From Mycoplasma imitans ATCC 51306 (lineage in GTDB: Bacteria; Bacillota_I; Bacilli_A; Mycoplasmatales; Mycoplasmoidaceae): a stretch of DNA of 64,000 bases. Below, piece by piece: positions 18,690-64,000 of the stretch (within the stretch, counting starts at the first letter, position 1; each line of letters opens with the position of its first letter). The stretch spans positions 94,256 through 158,255 of the forward strand of contig NZ_KI912416.1 of the NCBI RefSeq assembly GCF_000518305.1, written 5' to 3'. The position numbers and the translations under genes were made by a program. Below the pieces are notes generated by a model. It did not search any database. It was not told the origin of the DNA and saw nothing but the letters and a program-made list of their open reading frames with translations.

Positions 18690-19202
18690 CTATTTTTGTG
18701 CTTTAGCTATATTTTCTAAATGTTCTTTTTTAATCTGATTAATCTTTTCATCAATTATTAATAGATCTTCTGACATCTTGAATGCGTTGATTAGATCAGC
18801 ACATTTTTTCTTTTGGTATAGTTGGTTTTCAATAAAGAAAGCCACAAAATTGTAAGTCGCAAAGTCTTTATTAATTAAAGCTACTTCAGCAATCTCATCA
18901 AAAGCTATCGCCACAGCTTTTTGGTGTTCAGATACTGCTTCTATAATTGCTAGAGGTTCGCTTGAGTCAACCAACTTAGGTGTAATCAACTCATTAGTTC
19001 TTATTCACTGTTCGTTGATTCTTAAGTATTTTTCAATCTTTTGAGCGTGTTCTAATTTTTCTTTAGCTCAATCATACAACAAGGCGCTAAAATGATCCAT
19101 GCCGTATTCATCAATCCGCGCAGAGTATTCAAACATCAACGTCGCAGAGCCCATTTCAGTATTATATTGGTTATTTAACAATTTTCGAACATTACTATTC
19201 AT
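18690..19202 (-). CDS. Ferritin-like protein with altered diiron site
   Basis: A 170-residue four-helix protein with the length and spacing of bacterial ferritin. Matching the FtnA pattern by eye, E16 (N-T-E-M) corresponds to ferroxidase ligand E17 and H52 to H53. The E50 position is K49 (in K-E-K-L-E-H), E94 is replaced in V-S-E-H-Q, and E130 is Gln in I-E-N-Q-L-Y-Q. So iron storage or oxidation of the normal type is doubtful. It could be a Dps-like or structural relative. Start ATG at 19202. It is monocistronic with a strong terminator. Confidence 0.7.
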
Positions 19203-56558: not shown

Positions 56559-57245
56559 ATGTCAAGAAATTACAAATCATTAAAATATTCAGAACAAGAA
56601 TTAATCAATAAATTTTATGAATACATTGATCACGGGATCAAGATTCATGAAACTTTATTGAAAGCTTTGTATAACTACAAAAATGGCGAACCATATCTTG
56701 AACTTTTAGATGATATCTTCAAGATGGAAAAGCATTCTAACATCAAACAAGCCGACTTATTAGATGATTCAACCTGAGTTATTTCAAAAGAGCAACCACA
56801 AGCTTCACACCTAAGATTTATCATTGCAATTATCTCTTCATCAAACGATATCGAAAGAATCTGTGACTATGCAAATAATGTTGCTAAATTCTTAAAAAAG
56901 AACGATAACATTACACCGCAAAAGTTAGATGTAATTATTGACCTTCAAGAAGAAGCGTTAACTAACTACAAAGATGTAGTTACTCATTTAAAAGAAAATG
57001 ATGCAGAAGAAACATATAAATTTGCTGACATCAGACAACAAGAGTTTGAATCTAAATACAAGAGATATCTAAAGAATTTCAAAAAATACGATATTAATTC
57101 TGAAGATGAATTACAACTAAACCTATTGGTTGACACGATTCTAGTAATCAAAAACATTGAAAGAATCAACGATCATCTGGTTAATATTGTTGAATATTTT
57201 GTATACATCAAAGAATCATCTTTCTTCTTTGATAAGAAGATTTAA
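56559..57245 (+). CDS. phoU: Phosphate transport regulator PhoU
   Basis: A 228-residue, entirely helical protein with the two repeated three-helix bundles of PhoU (E-x-x-x-D-x-x-E-x-K patterns, here L-L-D-D-I-F-K-M-E and S-S-N-D-I-E-R-I-C-D-Y-A-N in the first half, I-K-N-I-E-R-I-N-D-H near the end). It restrains the Pst transporter. Position 3 bases after pstB confirms it. One UGA (56775-56777) is Trp. Confidence 0.9.
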
Positions 57246-57386: not shown

Positions 57387-59555
57387 CTAGATTTTGCATG
57401 CTTCGCAATCCATATTGCTTGCTTGATCTTTAACTCAATCTAAGTTTTCAGAATCTTCTAAAACGTTTTGTCTTACACGTACATAATAAACAGATGCGCA
57501 TTTAGATTTATAAGCTCTAATATAAGCCTTGTTTAAGTCTCTGGTTGTAGCTGTATCATTCATAAATAAAGTTAATGATATTGCTTGGTCAACGTGTTTT
57601 TGAGCTTGAGCACAGATATCGATATAAGGATTAGGTCCTAATTCGTAAGCACCGTCTTTGTAATACTTGTAGTTGTTTTCATCTAACTTGTAAGCTAATG
57701 AATAGATTCTACCAATCTTACCTTCTTTACGAACTTCAACGGGTGCTACAACTGGTTGTAATGATGGTGTACATGAAGATAAGTAAGAAATGCTACCAGT
57801 TGGTGCGATAGCTAATAAGTGAGCGTTAGCTAAACCAGTTTTCTTAATTTCTTCTGTTAGCGCTTTTCAATCAGATTGGGTAGGAATTTTAATCTTGTAA
57901 TTTTCAAAAAGTTCTTTAATTTTTGGATTTTTAATTACATACGTACAAGGATCACATTTAGTATATTTATCAAAGTAAGAACCATCAGCATACTTAGATG
58001 TTTTGAAGTTAGCATAAGTTTGTTTTTGTTCAACTGCTAAACGATTAGATGCCTTGAAAGCATAATAAGCTAATGTATAGAAGAAGAAATCGGTAAATTC
58101 TAAAGCTTCAGGTGAATCATAATAAATTTCATGTGTTGCTAAAAATCCATGTAAGTTCATTGCACCTAATCCTAAAGCGTGATTATTAGCATTACCATTC
58201 TTAATTGAAGGAGCGCAATCTAAATTAGCATTTCTAGAGACATGATCTAATGATTTGATTGCGTAATAAACTGATTGTTCAAAACGATCACCAGATTTCA
58301 TCATCTTGTCAATATTAACTGATCCTAAGTTACATGAGATATCTTGACCTAATTTCTTAATTGAAAAGTCTTCATTATATTCAGTTGATGATGAACTTTG
58401 AACAATCTCTGAACATAGATTAGACATCACAATACGACCGGCATTAGGATTACGGTTGTTAACCGTATCGTCGAATAATAAGTAAGGATAACCAGATTCG
58501 AAGTGTAATTCAGCAATAGTTTGAAAAAACTTACGTGCTGAAATATACGTCTTTTTAATCTTAGGGTTATTAACCATATTATGGTATTCTTCAGTTACTT
58601 TAATATCTGACAAAGGTTTTCCATAAACTTTTTGTACATCATATGGTGAAAACAACGCCATTTGTTCGTTGTTTTTAGCTAATTCAAAAGTAATATCAGG
58701 AATAACTAAACCAAGCGCTAATGACTTAATTCTGATTTTTTCATCAGCATTTTCACGCTTAGAATCTAAGAACACCATCACATCAGGGTGGTGAGCATGT
58801 AAGTATGCTGCTCCTACACCTGGTCTTTGACCTAATTGGTTTGCATACGAAAATGAGTCTTCAAGGATCTTCATTACAGGAATAACGCCAGATGCTTGAC
58901 CTTCAATATGTTTAATTGGCGCACCAAACTCTCTTAGATTAGTTAAACAAAGAGCTACACCTCCACCGCGTTTAGATAATTGTAATGAAGTAACAATCGC
59001 ACGACCAATTGATTCCATATTATCTTCAACACGTAATAAGTAACATGAAACGTATTCACCTCTTTGTTTCTTACCAGCATTTAAAAACGTTGGTGTTGCT
59101 GGTTGAAAACGCCCAGATAAAATTTCAATTAAAATGTTTTTAACGTTTTCAAAATTCTTACCGCCTAAGAATAATGCATTCATCAAACAACGTTCGCTGT
59201 AAGTTTCATAAAACTCTTTACCGTCATTACTCTTTAAACAATAAGCGTTATAAAACTTGAAAGCCCCCATAAATGAAGGAAATTCGTGATCAAATTCTTT
59301 GATCACACCGTAGAGCTCTTCAAGTTGTTCTTTAGTTACATTTTCGACAACTTCTTTTTCATAAAAGTCATGCTTAATTAAATAGTCCATTCGCTCATGA
59401 ATCGAATTAAACTTCTTAGTTCTTGGTTTAACATGCACTTGCATATAAAGTGCTACTGCTTTAGCATCATTAAGCGCAGAGTTTTTACCTTCATCTAATT
59501 TACTCATTGCATTGTATGCTAAATATCCATTAGCTTCTTTGAAACTATCACTCAT
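57387..59555 (-). CDS. nrdE: Ribonucleotide reductase large subunit (class Ib/Ie type)
   Basis: 722 residues, the catalytic subunit converting NDPs to dNDPs. Active-site features in order are the first redox Cys in V-S-C-Y-L-L-R-V-E-D-N, K-R-G-G-G-V-A near 200, N-L-C-S-E-I-V near 390, and the C-terminal D-C-E-A-C-K-I pair that relays reducing power. The N-terminal ATP cone of NrdA is absent, as in NrdE. UGA at 57867-57869 is Trp. The start at 59555 is preceded by an AGAGGA ribosome binding site. Last gene of nrdF-nrdI-nrdE, ~100 bases after nrdI. Confidence 0.95.
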
Positions 59556-59658: not shown

Positions 59659-60114
59659 TTATTCTTGTCAATTTCACAATTTTTGTATTCGTTCGCGAAC
59701 TAATTCTTCATCATATTTAGTTCCGATTAATTCAAAAATATGTAATAATGGTACTTTTAATTTAGCTCTAAGTACATGACCAGCTAGTCCGTATGTTTCA
59801 CCAAAATTGGTATTACCACTAGCTACAACCGCTACACAATGTTCTCGGTTTTGCAATTTGTTTAAAAATTTAATGACTTGCCTAGGCACTGCCCCCTTAA
59901 AGTCGTTTAGTCCACCTGAATATGTTGGACAGATTAATACGTAATCGAAATCGACTTCAATTTCTTCATTCAAACTGATTGGAATTCTGGTTGCAGGCAA
60001 ACCCAATTTATCGCAAAACTTTTTTGTATTTTCAGTTTTGCTGGAAAAATACACAACACGCATTTCTCCATTGGGTTTTCTTTTAGGCACATTTAGATTT
60101 TCTTTGATTTCCAT
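59659..60114 (-). CDS. nrdI: Flavodoxin-like NrdI
   Basis: A 151-residue FMN protein that supplies the oxidant activating NrdF. The start V-V-Y-F-S-S-K-T-E-N-T binds the flavin phosphate, and I-C-P-T-Y-S-G-G and V-A-S-G-N-T-N-F-G form the flavin loops. The final residues cross two UGA codons (W-N-W-Q-E) before TAA at 59661-59659, so the protein is longer than a standard-code reading gives. It lies 3 bases after the nrdF stop. In class Ie systems NrdI is needed to form the DOPA radical on NrdF. Confidence 0.93.
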
Positions 60115-60117
60115 AAA

Positions 60118-61137
60118 TTAGAATTCTCAGTCATCATCTTCTGTTTCTTCAGTTACACCCATAATATATGAGCTTCCATTACCACTGAAGAAATCATGGT
60201 TTTCATCAGCTCTAGCTGATAGTTGTGCAAAAACTTCTGGTGAGATTTTTGTTTCCTCTGGTGTGAATGGTGATTCATAACCACAGTTTTGTAAGAACTT
60301 ACCGGCGTTGTATAAACTGAACGCAATTGCTTCATCAGCTAGACCAAAACCGTCGTAGAGTTCTCTTAAGAAATCCTTTTCCAGTTCAATGATTTTGTAC
60401 AAGGTATCAAAAACAAATTTTTTGTATTCTTCTTGTTTTTCTTTAGGTAGTTTTTCAACCTTCATTCTGTACTTGTAACCTGAATAATAGTTGTGAAGCA
60501 CTTTATCTCTTAAAATTAAGCGAATGATATCACTAGTGTTTGGTAGTTTACCTCTAGCCGCTAAATAGAATGGTAAATAAAAACCGCCATATAATAAGAA
60601 TCCAGGCATTAATGCTGCTGCAATTTTTGACTTCAATGGATCATCTGAAGTATAGTAAGGAACTAAAAATTTAGCTCTAGCTTGCAACTTTTCATTGTTA
60701 ATCACTCATTCATGAGCTTCTTCAATTTCATCACTTGTATTTAATGTTGAGAAAATTGTTCCATAACTACGCGCATGAACACCCACCATGAAAGAAAAAT
60801 TCGCATAAATAAATTGTTCATGATCAGTTAATGAGTGAGGGATCTGAGCAATATCGCCTAATGTACATTGAATCGTATCTAAAAGCGTTAATCCAGTAAA
60901 TGTTCTAGTAACTAATTGCTTTCACTCAGCAGTTAATTCATTTCAAGATTTAAGGTCATTTGAGACTGGTATCTTTTCTGGCAACCAGAAGTTTTGAGTA
61001 ACTCTTGTTCAAACTTCTAAGTCTTTTGGATCATTAATTACGTTCCAGTTAATCGAACGCATAACTCCTTTTTGTCCATTTGCAACATAGCCTAATGGAC
61101 TAAATGACTTATCATAATATTTGTTGTTATTTGACAT
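60118..61137 (-). CDS. nrdF: Ribonucleotide reductase radical subunit NrdF, VPK (class Ie) variant
   Basis: A 339-residue NrdF throughout (N-F-W-L-P-E-K-I-P-V-S, F-T-G-L-T-L-L-D-T-I-Q, end S-S-Y-I-M-G-V-T-E-E-T-E). D87 and the ligand histidines H121 and H215 remain, as does the radical Tyr Y125. The other three carboxylates are gone: F-M-E-A-V-H is F-M-V-G-V-H (V118), L-E-S-F is M-P-G-F (P178) and R-D-E-A-V-H is R-D-K-V-L-H (K212). I re-read the V118, P178 and K212 codons on the minus strand. This V/P/K set defines metal-free class Ie enzymes using a DOPA radical made with NrdI, known from Mycoplasma and related bacteria. UGA codons are Trp. Confidence 0.95.
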
Positions 61138-61639: not shown

Positions 61640-62509
61640 ATGAAAACATATTTGAATCTGTTGCAAAAAGTTTTGAGCAAAGGTGAGGTTAAAAAAGACC
61701 GCACAAACACAGGCACAATTTCTTATTTTGGCACTCAAGCTCGATATGACTTACGAGAAGGATTTCCTTTGTTAACAACAAAGAAAATGGCATGAAAGTC
61801 AATTTGTTACGAACTATTATGATTTCTTAAGGGTGATACTAATATTAAGTTTCTAGTTGACCATAATGTAAACATTTGAAACGAATGGCCATATGAAATT
61901 TTTAAAAAGTCTTCTGATTTTAAAGGCGAAAGTTTGCAAGAGTATGTTGAAAAAATAAAAACTGATGATAAATTTGCTAAACAACATGGAAAACTAGGTC
62001 CAGTATATGGAAAACAATGACGAGATTTTAATGGTGTGGATCAAATAGAATTGGTGATTAATGAAATTAAAACTAATCCATACTCTCGTCGCTTGATTGT
62101 GAGCGCATGAAACCCACCAGAAGTAAAAGATATGGCGTTACCACCATGTCATAGTTTTTTTCAATTCTTTGTTAATAAAGATAATGAAATATCGCTTCAA
62201 CTTTATCAAAGAAGTGGTGATATGTTTTTGGGTGTTCCTTTTAATATTGCATCGTATAGTTTGATGCTTTTAATGGTTGCGCAAGTAACAGGACTAAAAC
62301 CGGCTGAATTTATTCATACAATTGGAGACACTCACATTTATTCTAACCATGTTGAACAAGTTAAAACTCAATTACAAAGAGAACCTAAAAAATTACCAAA
62401 AGTTGTTTTAAATCCTAACATTAAAAACATCTTCGATTTTAAGTTTGAGGATATTACATTAGAGGATTACGAACATCACGAACCAATTAAAGCAAAGGTA
62501 GCTGTGTAA
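61640..62509 (+). CDS. thyA: Thymidylate synthase
   Basis: A 289-residue enzyme methylating dUMP to dTMP with methylene-tetrahydrofolate. R-T-N-T-G-T near 22 and the R-R-x-I-V-S-A-W-N-P block are present. The nucleophile is C170 in A-L-P-P-C-H, followed by [19 protein letters not shown] and [17 protein letters not shown]-type sequence before ATG is a strong ribosome binding site. The stop overlaps the next gene by one base (TAATG). UGA codons in the first half are Trp. Confidence 0.96.
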
Positions 62510-63459
62510 TGATTAAATTAATAGTAGCAATGGATCAAGCCAATTTAATTGGTAAACAAGATAAAATGCCTTGACATATTAAAGATGAATTTCAGCATTT
62601 TAAAAATACAACAATTGGGCACTCATTGTTGTTTGGCAAAAGAACCTTTTTAGGATTACCTGGAAAATTAAAAAATCGTAAACATTTTGTTTTTAGTAGA
62701 GAAGATATTATCCCTGATGCTGATGTAACAATTCGCAATGAAAAAGAATTAATGGAACTATTTAAAGCATATAAAGATAGCCAAGATATTTTATTTATTG
62801 CTGGCGGAAAATATGTTTATGAAAAATATTATCATTATGCTGACGAACTTATTATTTCACGTATTAAAAAGAAATACGAAGGCGATATTTATCTTAATTT
62901 AGATTTATCCAATTACGATTTGTCTAAAGTGCAAGAATATAGCGATTTTACCGTTGAATTTTGATTAAAAAAACCAAATATTAATAAAATAAATCCCAAT
63001 GCAATTAGTTGAGATGAATACTTCATGATGTTAGCTACAATATCGTCCATGAGATCAAAAGATCCATCGACACAGGTAGGAGCGTGTATTGTTAACAAAA
63101 AGAAATATGTAATAGGTTTAGGGTATAATGGAATGCCTAAAGGATTTGATGAAAAATTTCCTTGAGACCGCACAAACCTAGACAGTGCTAAAACTAAATA
63201 TCCATATGTAGTTCATGCTGAAATAAACGCTATTCTTAACACAAGCACGATTATAGAAGATTGTACACTTTATACTAATTTATTTCCGTGTTCAAATTGC
63301 GCTAAAACTATTGCACAAAGCGGCATAGTTGAAGTTGTTTATGAAGATAATAAATATGAGAATCTTCCTGACTACAAAATAGCTACCTTTATTTTAGAAA
63401 GCGCCAACATTAAAGTTAGACAACACAAGATAATCCACAAGGTAATTAAAAAAGATTAA
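62509..63459 (+). CDS. Dihydrofolate reductase fused to dCMP deaminase
   Basis: One continuous 316-residue frame when UGA is Trp. Residues 1-~155 are dihydrofolate reductase: L-I-V-A-M-D, the [11 protein letters not shown] loop, F-G-K-R-T-F near 43 and I-A-G-G-K-Y-V-Y near 103. After a short linker, ~165-316 is a deoxycytidylate deaminase: D-P-S-T-Q-V-G-A, zinc ligands H236-A-E238 and P-C261-S-N-C264. The product dUMP feeds ThyA, encoded just upstream and coupled by TAATG; DHFR regenerates the folate ThyA uses. Three UGA codons, two in the linker (62962-62964 and ~63010), lie in the coding path, so a standard-code reading would miss the fusion. Confidence 0.93.
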
Positions 63460-63666: not shown

Positions 63667-64000
63667 GCGGGCACCGAATTCAATTTTGTGTAAAACAATT
63701 AATTAACTCAAAAAAGAAAGGTTAATATAATTTTATAAACGGTAAACAAAAATGAATTCAAAAGACGAACAAATGAAACAGATTCAAAAATTAATCGTTG
63801 AATTTGTAAAACAATTTGGTCCTAGTAGCGGAAAGCAACTATTAAACATCACTGATTATATTGCTAGCCTGTTTTACAGGCTCTTGTTGATGGTGAACAC
63901 GTTGGCAAACTAGAATTATTGAGAGAAAATGCTGATAATGATGAAAACGTGTATCAAAACGGATCATACACTAGAAATGTTAAGTGAGGGCAAGAAGAAA
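63667..64000 (+). mobile_element. Left end of an IS256-family insertion sequence (cut by window end)
   Basis: The sequence from about 63667 contains A-T-T-T-T-G-T-G-T-A-A-A-A, like the terminal repeats of IS256-type elements, followed ~60 bases later by a transposase start. The same left-end pattern, decayed, occurs at 27.8 kb. The exact outer boundary and any target duplication cannot be set because the right end is outside the window. Confidence 0.6.
63752..64000 (+). pseudogene. IS256-family transposase N-terminus, apparently frameshifted
   Basis: From ATG 63752 the reading M-N-S-K-D-E-Q-M-K-Q-I-Q-K-L-I continues to D-Y-I-A-S-L-F, then runs off into Y-R-L-L-L and a TAG at about 63911. In another frame, from ~63879, Q-A-L-V-D-G-E-H-V-G-K-L-E-L-L-R-E-N and Q-N-G-S-Y-T-R-N-V-K-W follow, the normal N-terminal part of this family (compare E-N-G-S-Y-S-R). 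The shift falls in the perfect inverted repeat AGCCTGT-TTT-ACAGGCT near 63866-63882. The gene is broken, carries a sequence error, or is expressed by frameshifting. The rest is outside the window. Confidence 0.65.

Follow-up and report, generated by a model that had tools for sequence, protein, structure and literature searches.

A putative metal-free class Ie ribonucleotide reductase in Mycoplasma imitans, encoded in an nrd-thyA block of probable horizontal origin

Results and discussion

The nrd-thyA locus

The window, that is, the whole stretch of 64,000 nucleotides analysed here from contig NZ_KI912416.1 of Mycoplasma imitans ATCC 51306, carries nrdF, nrdI and nrdE on one strand and, divergent from them, thyA and a gene for a fused protein. 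The genes of the block and its left border are as follows.

56559..57245, plus strand: phoU, left border of the block
57387..59555, minus strand: nrdE, catalytic subunit (722 aa; TIGR04170, 927 bits against a cut-off of 750)
59659..60114, minus strand: nrdI, flavoprotein, predicted oxidant supplier (151 aa; TIGR00333, 154 bits against a cut-off of 74.65)
60118..61137, minus strand: nrdF, small subunit of ribonucleotide reductase (RNR), assigned to class Ie, VPK variant (339 aa, table 4)
61640..62509, plus strand: thyA, thymidylate synthase, divergent neighbour, in the same arrangement as in the M. synoviae type
62509..63459, plus strand: fused dihydrofolate reductase (DHFR)/dCMP-deaminase-like protein (PF00186 and PF00383)

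Mycoplasmas use genetic code 4, in which TGA is read as tryptophan. Under this code nrdF is an unbroken frame of 339 aa with five TGA codons as Trp, and under table 11 the same five codons interrupt it. A gap of 3 bases separates nrdF from nrdI, as expected from an earlier note on this DNA, which had placed NrdI next to NrdF, and a further 103 bases separate nrdI from nrdE, giving the order nrdF-nrdI-nrdE. The best solved matches of NrdI were the NrdI proteins in 6ebq and 7mmp. NrdE contains the motifs SCYL-170, NLCSE-379, SCNLGS-407, VYYVR-689 and, at its C-terminus, CEAC-717, which we take to be those of the active site. In the fused DHFR/dCMP-deaminase-like protein, about 157 of 316 residues are covered by the best matches found in the loci of the M. 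synoviae type and the M. genitalium type.

Metal-site residues and class assignment of NrdF

From the residues at the metal site, the earlier note had assigned NrdF to class Ie: three Glu residues that bind metal are replaced by Val, Pro and Lys, and Asp, two His and Tyr are kept. All seven residues were found at the numbers that it gave.

60877..60879, minus strand: D87 codon, kept carboxylate (M. florum Asp88)
60784..60786, minus strand: V118 codon, in place of the first metal-binding Glu by alignment
60775..60777, minus strand: H121 codon, kept
60763..60765, minus strand: Y125 codon, predicted DOPA site (M. florum Tyr126)
60604..60606, minus strand: P178 codon, in place of the second Glu by alignment
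60502..60504, minus strand: K212 codon, in place of the third Glu by alignment (M. florum Lys213)
60493..60495, minus strand: H215 codon, kept

When aligned with class Ib and class Ie proteins, the window NrdF had no Glu at the three positions. The alignment held 263 R2 rows (142 rows from 140 loci, many genomes appearing twice, plus 121 proteins; 211 distinct), which were drawn from the best matches (best 80 loci and best 120 proteins), so that the residue sets found, VPK in 168 rows, EEE in 88 and QSK in 7, are not a census. Since no row among the 263 had a mixed V/P/K-E/E/E-Q/S/K set, the replacement is not a matter of chance. All of these rows keep the Asp, the Tyr and the two His residues, while the three columns were Glu in 100% of the 78 distinct EEE rows and V/P/K in 100% of the 127 distinct VPK rows, the window's included. 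At the level of genomes, 39 were R2-positive and the residues were read in 31 of them (20 VPK, 11 EEE; G012, G016, G017, G025, G026, G030, G034 and G036 were left out). Columns telling the VPK rows apart from the EEE rows (conservation of at least 97% and 90%) served as diagnostic; in 27 of 27 of them the window NrdF had the VPK letter, a result that speaks for consistency more than as independent proof, because the three defining columns are among them and the window itself is a VPK row. Two further residues were conserved across the sets: W51 was invariant in the 127 distinct VPK and the 78 distinct EEE rows, and Y324, a tyrosine in the tail, was conserved in 127 and 77 of them, respectively.

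In an NrdF tree of 62 chosen rows (56 different; two QSK rows were flagged for long end branches), the 55 VPK rows formed one clade with support of 100/100 on a very long branch, and the window NrdF lay inside it. Class Ib was rejected for the window protein, in which three of the four carboxylates are absent and which is placed in the VPK clade; the QSK variant was rejected on the V/P/K residues at the three positions, and the tree is also against it. Collectively, the residue set, the clade and the nrdFIE order passed each sequence test that was run and support the assignment of NrdF (60118..61137) to the VPK variant of class Ie, as the earlier note had it. Since the three metal-binding glutamates are absent, the protein likely works without iron or manganese.

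Sequence relationships of the block

For the comparisons below, G003, G005 and G047 were taken as M. tullyi, M. bradburyae and M. zalophi, respectively; G053 (M. synoviae type) and G008 (M. genitalium type) were named by an NrdF identical over the tree columns, and G009 (M. gallisepticum type) by a nearly identical NrdF. Identities of the window NrdF were 84-87% with the M. synoviae and M. zalophi types, members of another family, and 73-75% with its congeners G008, G004 and G007. SecA showed 44-47% identity to the M. synoviae/M. zalophi types and 63-71% to the same three congeners. ThyA was 69-73% identical to the M. synoviae/M. zalophi types versus 54-61% to G002, G004, G006, G007 and G008. 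PstCA, encoded by a phosphate-transport gene beside phoU, was without the identity pattern of NrdF and ThyA and had matches in 11 of 11 genus genomes and in none of three M. synoviae/zalophi types.

Trees were built for NrdF, NrdE and SecA, the last being the one vertical marker. The genus stays together in the SecA tree (18 rows, with a long-branch warning for G020). In the NrdE tree (25 rows), the M. gallisepticum-type group that contains the window sits beside M. synoviae with support of 99/97, inside a 100/100 clade that also holds the zalophi types. It is this tree that gives the M. synoviae placement, the NrdF tree singling out no one Mycoplasmopsis lineage as the nearest. For NrdF, a single clade of the genus was rejected (p-AU 2.2e-5), as was a grouping of the window group with G004/G007 (p-AU 3.6e-5); a grouping of the M. 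gallisepticum group with the M. genitalium-type G008 was rejected weakly (p-AU 0.0405).

The NrdF and NrdE of G004/G007 (L014, L018, L037) group with Mycoplasmopsis agassizii (100/98 for NrdF and 98/96 for NrdE), which is likely a second transfer between families.

Gene order, empty site and borders of the block

The M. synoviae type has the same divergent nrdFIE / thyA-DHFR arrangement, with identities of 87% for NrdF, 67% for NrdI, 76% for NrdE, 75% for ThyA and 63% for DHFR. The order in G008 is thyA-DHFR-nrdFIE, all in one direction. The site of the block was compared with an empty site in two relatives: in G005 the flanks are 43 bases apart by DNA alignment, and in G001 the distance from phoU to the next gene is 52 bases, the block being absent from the site in both. 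In G009, a stretch of 7.8 kb separates phoU from the next conserved gene; the block occupies about 6.2 kb of it, and short frames make up the remaining 1.6 kb or so. For the window and G003 the reading covered the left border, and the right border was read in G009 only, because the window stops at its contig end (base 158255 of the contig), to the right of the nrd-thyA block and inside short frames at 63752-64000 (plus strand). In G005 and G010, nrdFIE is found at other locations without an adjacent thyA. The block has likely been moved or lost within the lineage since its acquisition, and its presence at the phoU site may reflect relocation inside the lineage or a fresh insertion, both of which fit.

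Given the trees and the empty site, nrdFIE, thyA and the DHFR gene were likely gained horizontally from the Mycoplasmopsis synoviae/zalophi lineage, with an M. synoviae-like donor; the direction of transfer is taken from one source, the nesting in the NrdE tree. Alternatively, the VPK NrdF could have descended vertically in the genus, its likeness to the M. synoviae lineage being due to slow evolution or convergence. The VPK NrdF proteins of the M. genitalium-type G008 and of G004/G007 would suit such a history, as would the weak rejection of the grouping with G008. However, NrdE gives the same placement as NrdF, the divergent nrdFIE / thyA-DHFR arrangement is common to the window and M. synoviae but not to G008, and the site of the block is empty in G001 and G005, so we regard vertical descent as improbable. 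Judged from the sequence data as a whole, we are highly confident in the combined reading that nrdF-nrdI-nrdE encodes a class Ie VPK reductase, likely free of iron and manganese and with a DOPA radical on Tyr125, and that its block with thyA and the DHFR gene was likely acquired horizontally.

As to a mobile element bordering the block on its right, a transposase piece was considered but found no support: two short frames there gave no credible Pfam match (best E 0.21) and no NCBIfam match. The stretch at 63752-64000 (plus strand), whose frames have no credible family match, is possibly a repeat. The frames that separate DHFR from the following conserved gene in G009 gave sub-threshold matches only (best HpcH_HpaI, E 0.0034). 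ARAGORN detected no tRNA at the block that would point to tRNA-linked insertion, either in six loci or in the window. The GC content of the block (0.310) compared with that of the sequence to its left (0.311) is uninformative.

Ribonucleotide reductase content of the genome and the genus

The draft assembly of the organism (922,439 bases, 24 contigs, 95.86% complete) has one match each to PF00268, PF02867 and PF07972 (NrdI). No second R2 and no class II or class III reductase (PF13597, NRDD) was matched in these 922,439 bases; the same profile searches were positive in 7, 11, 3 and 6 of 14 control genomes for PF00268, PF02867, PF07972 and PF13597, respectively. The single-contig relatives G003, G005, G009 and G010 have the same single RNR set. 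By genome content, the predicted metal-free class Ie enzyme is therefore the sole RNR of the draft genome, in line with the proposal of the earlier note that a normal metal enzyme might not be present as a backup, although with 24 contigs a second enzyme could lie in a gap. The only PF00268 match is likewise the outcome of the search for a second NrdF.

Among the 11 genomes of the genus, VPK class Ie occurs alone in six (G000, G003, G005, G008, G009 and G010); two, G007 and G004, have it together with a class II-type gene, and the class II type occurs alone in two (G002 and G006). G001 (one contig, 97% complete) had no match for R2, R1, NrdI, class III or ThyA. This close relative (L162, L200; SecA 86%) is a mycoplasma that apparently lives on deoxynucleoside salvage. 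The B12-dependent class II-type NrdJ of the genus (L175, L176, L177, L178) scored above curated cut-offs in G002, G006 and G007; the class II protein of G004 is divergent, falls under the curated cut-offs and is without the usual cysteine-rich C-terminus.

Considering that G001 has no RNR match at all, and that three PF01712 deoxynucleoside-kinase matches in the M. imitans genome exceed the cut-off, so that salvage may add dNTPs, the nrd genes might be a decaying relic in a cell that lives on salvage with an inactive reductase. We consider this very unlikely: nrdF, nrdI and nrdE are all open and full length with their active-site motifs kept, the 27 diagnostic columns of NrdF are all conserved, and NrdF is better conserved than any other product of the block when compared with the four nearest relatives (96-97%).

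With M. imitans, a mycoplasma near M. gallisepticum and M. tullyi is added to those with a predicted metal-free enzyme as sole RNR by genome content. Withholding of iron or manganese by the host would therefore not be expected to stop dNTP supply at the RNR step. The close species, with nrd genes beside phoU, elsewhere, or with no RNR match, offer a natural comparison, and the transfer together with the empty site thus makes the dispensability of ribonucleotide reduction testable.

Relation to known class Ie systems and proposed mechanism

The best solved match of the window NrdF was the class Ie NrdF of Mesoplasma florum (6gp2; E 6.5e-184, 614 bits), followed by 9r5l, 6ebo, 7mmp and 7mmr; these five top entries scored about 594-614 bits and the following chain 396 bits. 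The M. florum protein (MfR2; 6gp2, 6gp3, 8bt3, 8bt4) has the VPK set and 77% identity to the window NrdF, with numbering shifted by +1 (Asp88, Val119, His122, Tyr126, Lys213, Trp52). The two differ in lying in different NrdF subclades and in that the window protein is known as a sequence. The NrdF in 6ebo and 7mmp, which we take to be the Aerococcus urinae enzyme, is near the window NrdF by score and below M. florum (594 versus 614 bits); 7mmp holds NrdF and NrdI chains, and the latter ranks with the best matches of the window NrdI.

Class Ib NrdF (EEE) shares the fold family and the NrdI and NrdE partners with the window protein, but keeps the three Glu residues, and the window NrdF is 49-54% identical to the best named class Ib proteins and 32-35% to its EEE-type relatives L022-L031. 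That it is an ordinary class Ib enzyme (dimanganese or diiron) whose metal site has varied without harm has next to no probability, even though NCBIfam calls it class 1b (NF010572, TIGR04171) and many public records of NrdF homologues use the same name, since the three columns that are always Glu in the 78 distinct EEE rows are none of them Glu here, the protein lies inside the 100/100 VPK clade, and of the 12 NCBIfam models matched none names class Ie.

The papers of Srinivas and of Blaesi from 2018 are reportedly the discovery papers of class Ie, which is said to have been described in mycoplasmas. Since the class was described in 2018 and was catalogued over GTDB in 2025 (PMC11846895), the finding of the earlier note is correct but mostly explained: the family and its mechanism are already published, and the window enzyme is one more member. 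In this catalogue, John et al. 2025 count 128 VPK genomes in GTDB, 93 of them Mycoplasmatales and virtually all with nrdFIE, and 65 species with VPK alone, and infer horizontal transfer in general; the order given there for VPK enzymes is nrdF-nrdI-nrdE, which the window order matches. The Gardnerella vaginalis class Ie NrdF is metal-free and obtains DOPA from tyrosine like class Ie VPK, but has Q/S/K and not V/P/K, the order nrdHIEF, and a purified form that is inactive unless reduced NrdI is added (PMC11846895). The new part here is the history of the nrd genes, namely the likely transfer and the empty site.

According to published work (PMC11846895, PMC7615503, PMC8463856, PMC8902622), VPK enzymes from M. 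florum, S. pyogenes and A. urinae are active at <0.2 metal per subunit. When they are co-expressed aerobically with NrdI, the tyrosine undergoes meta-hydroxylation to DOPA, which adjoins Asp88 and lies near Lys213. In this work no in vitro protocol yields the DOPA, and its chemistry is left open. DFT work on the M. florum enzyme (PMC8902622) dealt with Asp88, Val119, His122, Tyr126 and Lys213; the role assigned below to W51 is that of M. florum W52 in this paper, and that of the tail tyrosine (Y324 here) draws in part on PMC8463856.

By analogy with the M. florum, Aerococcus urinae and Streptococcus pyogenes enzymes, a metal-free state and a DOPA radical are predicted for the window NrdF. Following published M. 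florum-type work, reduced NrdI would send superoxide, or the protonated form of it, as the oxidant along a channel leading to Tyr125; this residue would be meta-hydroxylated to DOPA and then oxidised. The radical would be held and gated by D87 and K212 and would reach NrdE by way of W51 and Y324 in the tail; in NrdE, a thiyl radical would initiate ribonucleotide reduction.

Exchange of sequence between M. synoviae and M. gallisepticum has been reported, with 11 regions that are >90% similar; in the accessible part of that report, nrd is not named among the exchanged regions (PMC5797395). A transfer of nrd into the M. gallisepticum group was not found in the literature on M. gallisepticum/M. 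synoviae and ribonucleotide reductase. Our search found no publication on M. gallisepticum with a metal-free ribonucleotide reductase and none on M. synoviae together with ribonucleotide reductase, and the papers found on M. gallisepticum nrdF do not have class Ie in their titles.

The ferritin-like protein and iron

The window also encodes a ferritin-like protein.

18690-19202, minus strand: ferritin-like protein (PF00210)

At the ferroxidase positions it has E K H E N Q Y Q versus E E H E E Q E E in 3kx9. In the ligand names used here, which presumably denote the ferroxidase ligands, E50 is changed to K and E130 to Q, a loss common to the copy of G003 (M. tullyi type); E50 and E130 are kept in G001, G005, G010, G004, G007 and G011.

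One could speculate on a lineage-wide retreat from iron, in which the M. gallisepticum group captured a metal-free nrdEIF-thyA-DHFR block from an M. synoviae-like neighbour as its only RNR, the ferroxidase site of ferritin decayed in part of the lineage, and a sister species dropped ribonucleotide reduction. We put this forward as a tentative picture that is rather doubtful as a whole.

The ferritin copy of G009 (M. gallisepticum type; L182) has an in-frame TAG and, because of this stop codon, was kept out of the comparison (L180-L199). Against simple decay, K was found at the E50 position in 6 of the 11 more distant ferritin rows (L189-L199).
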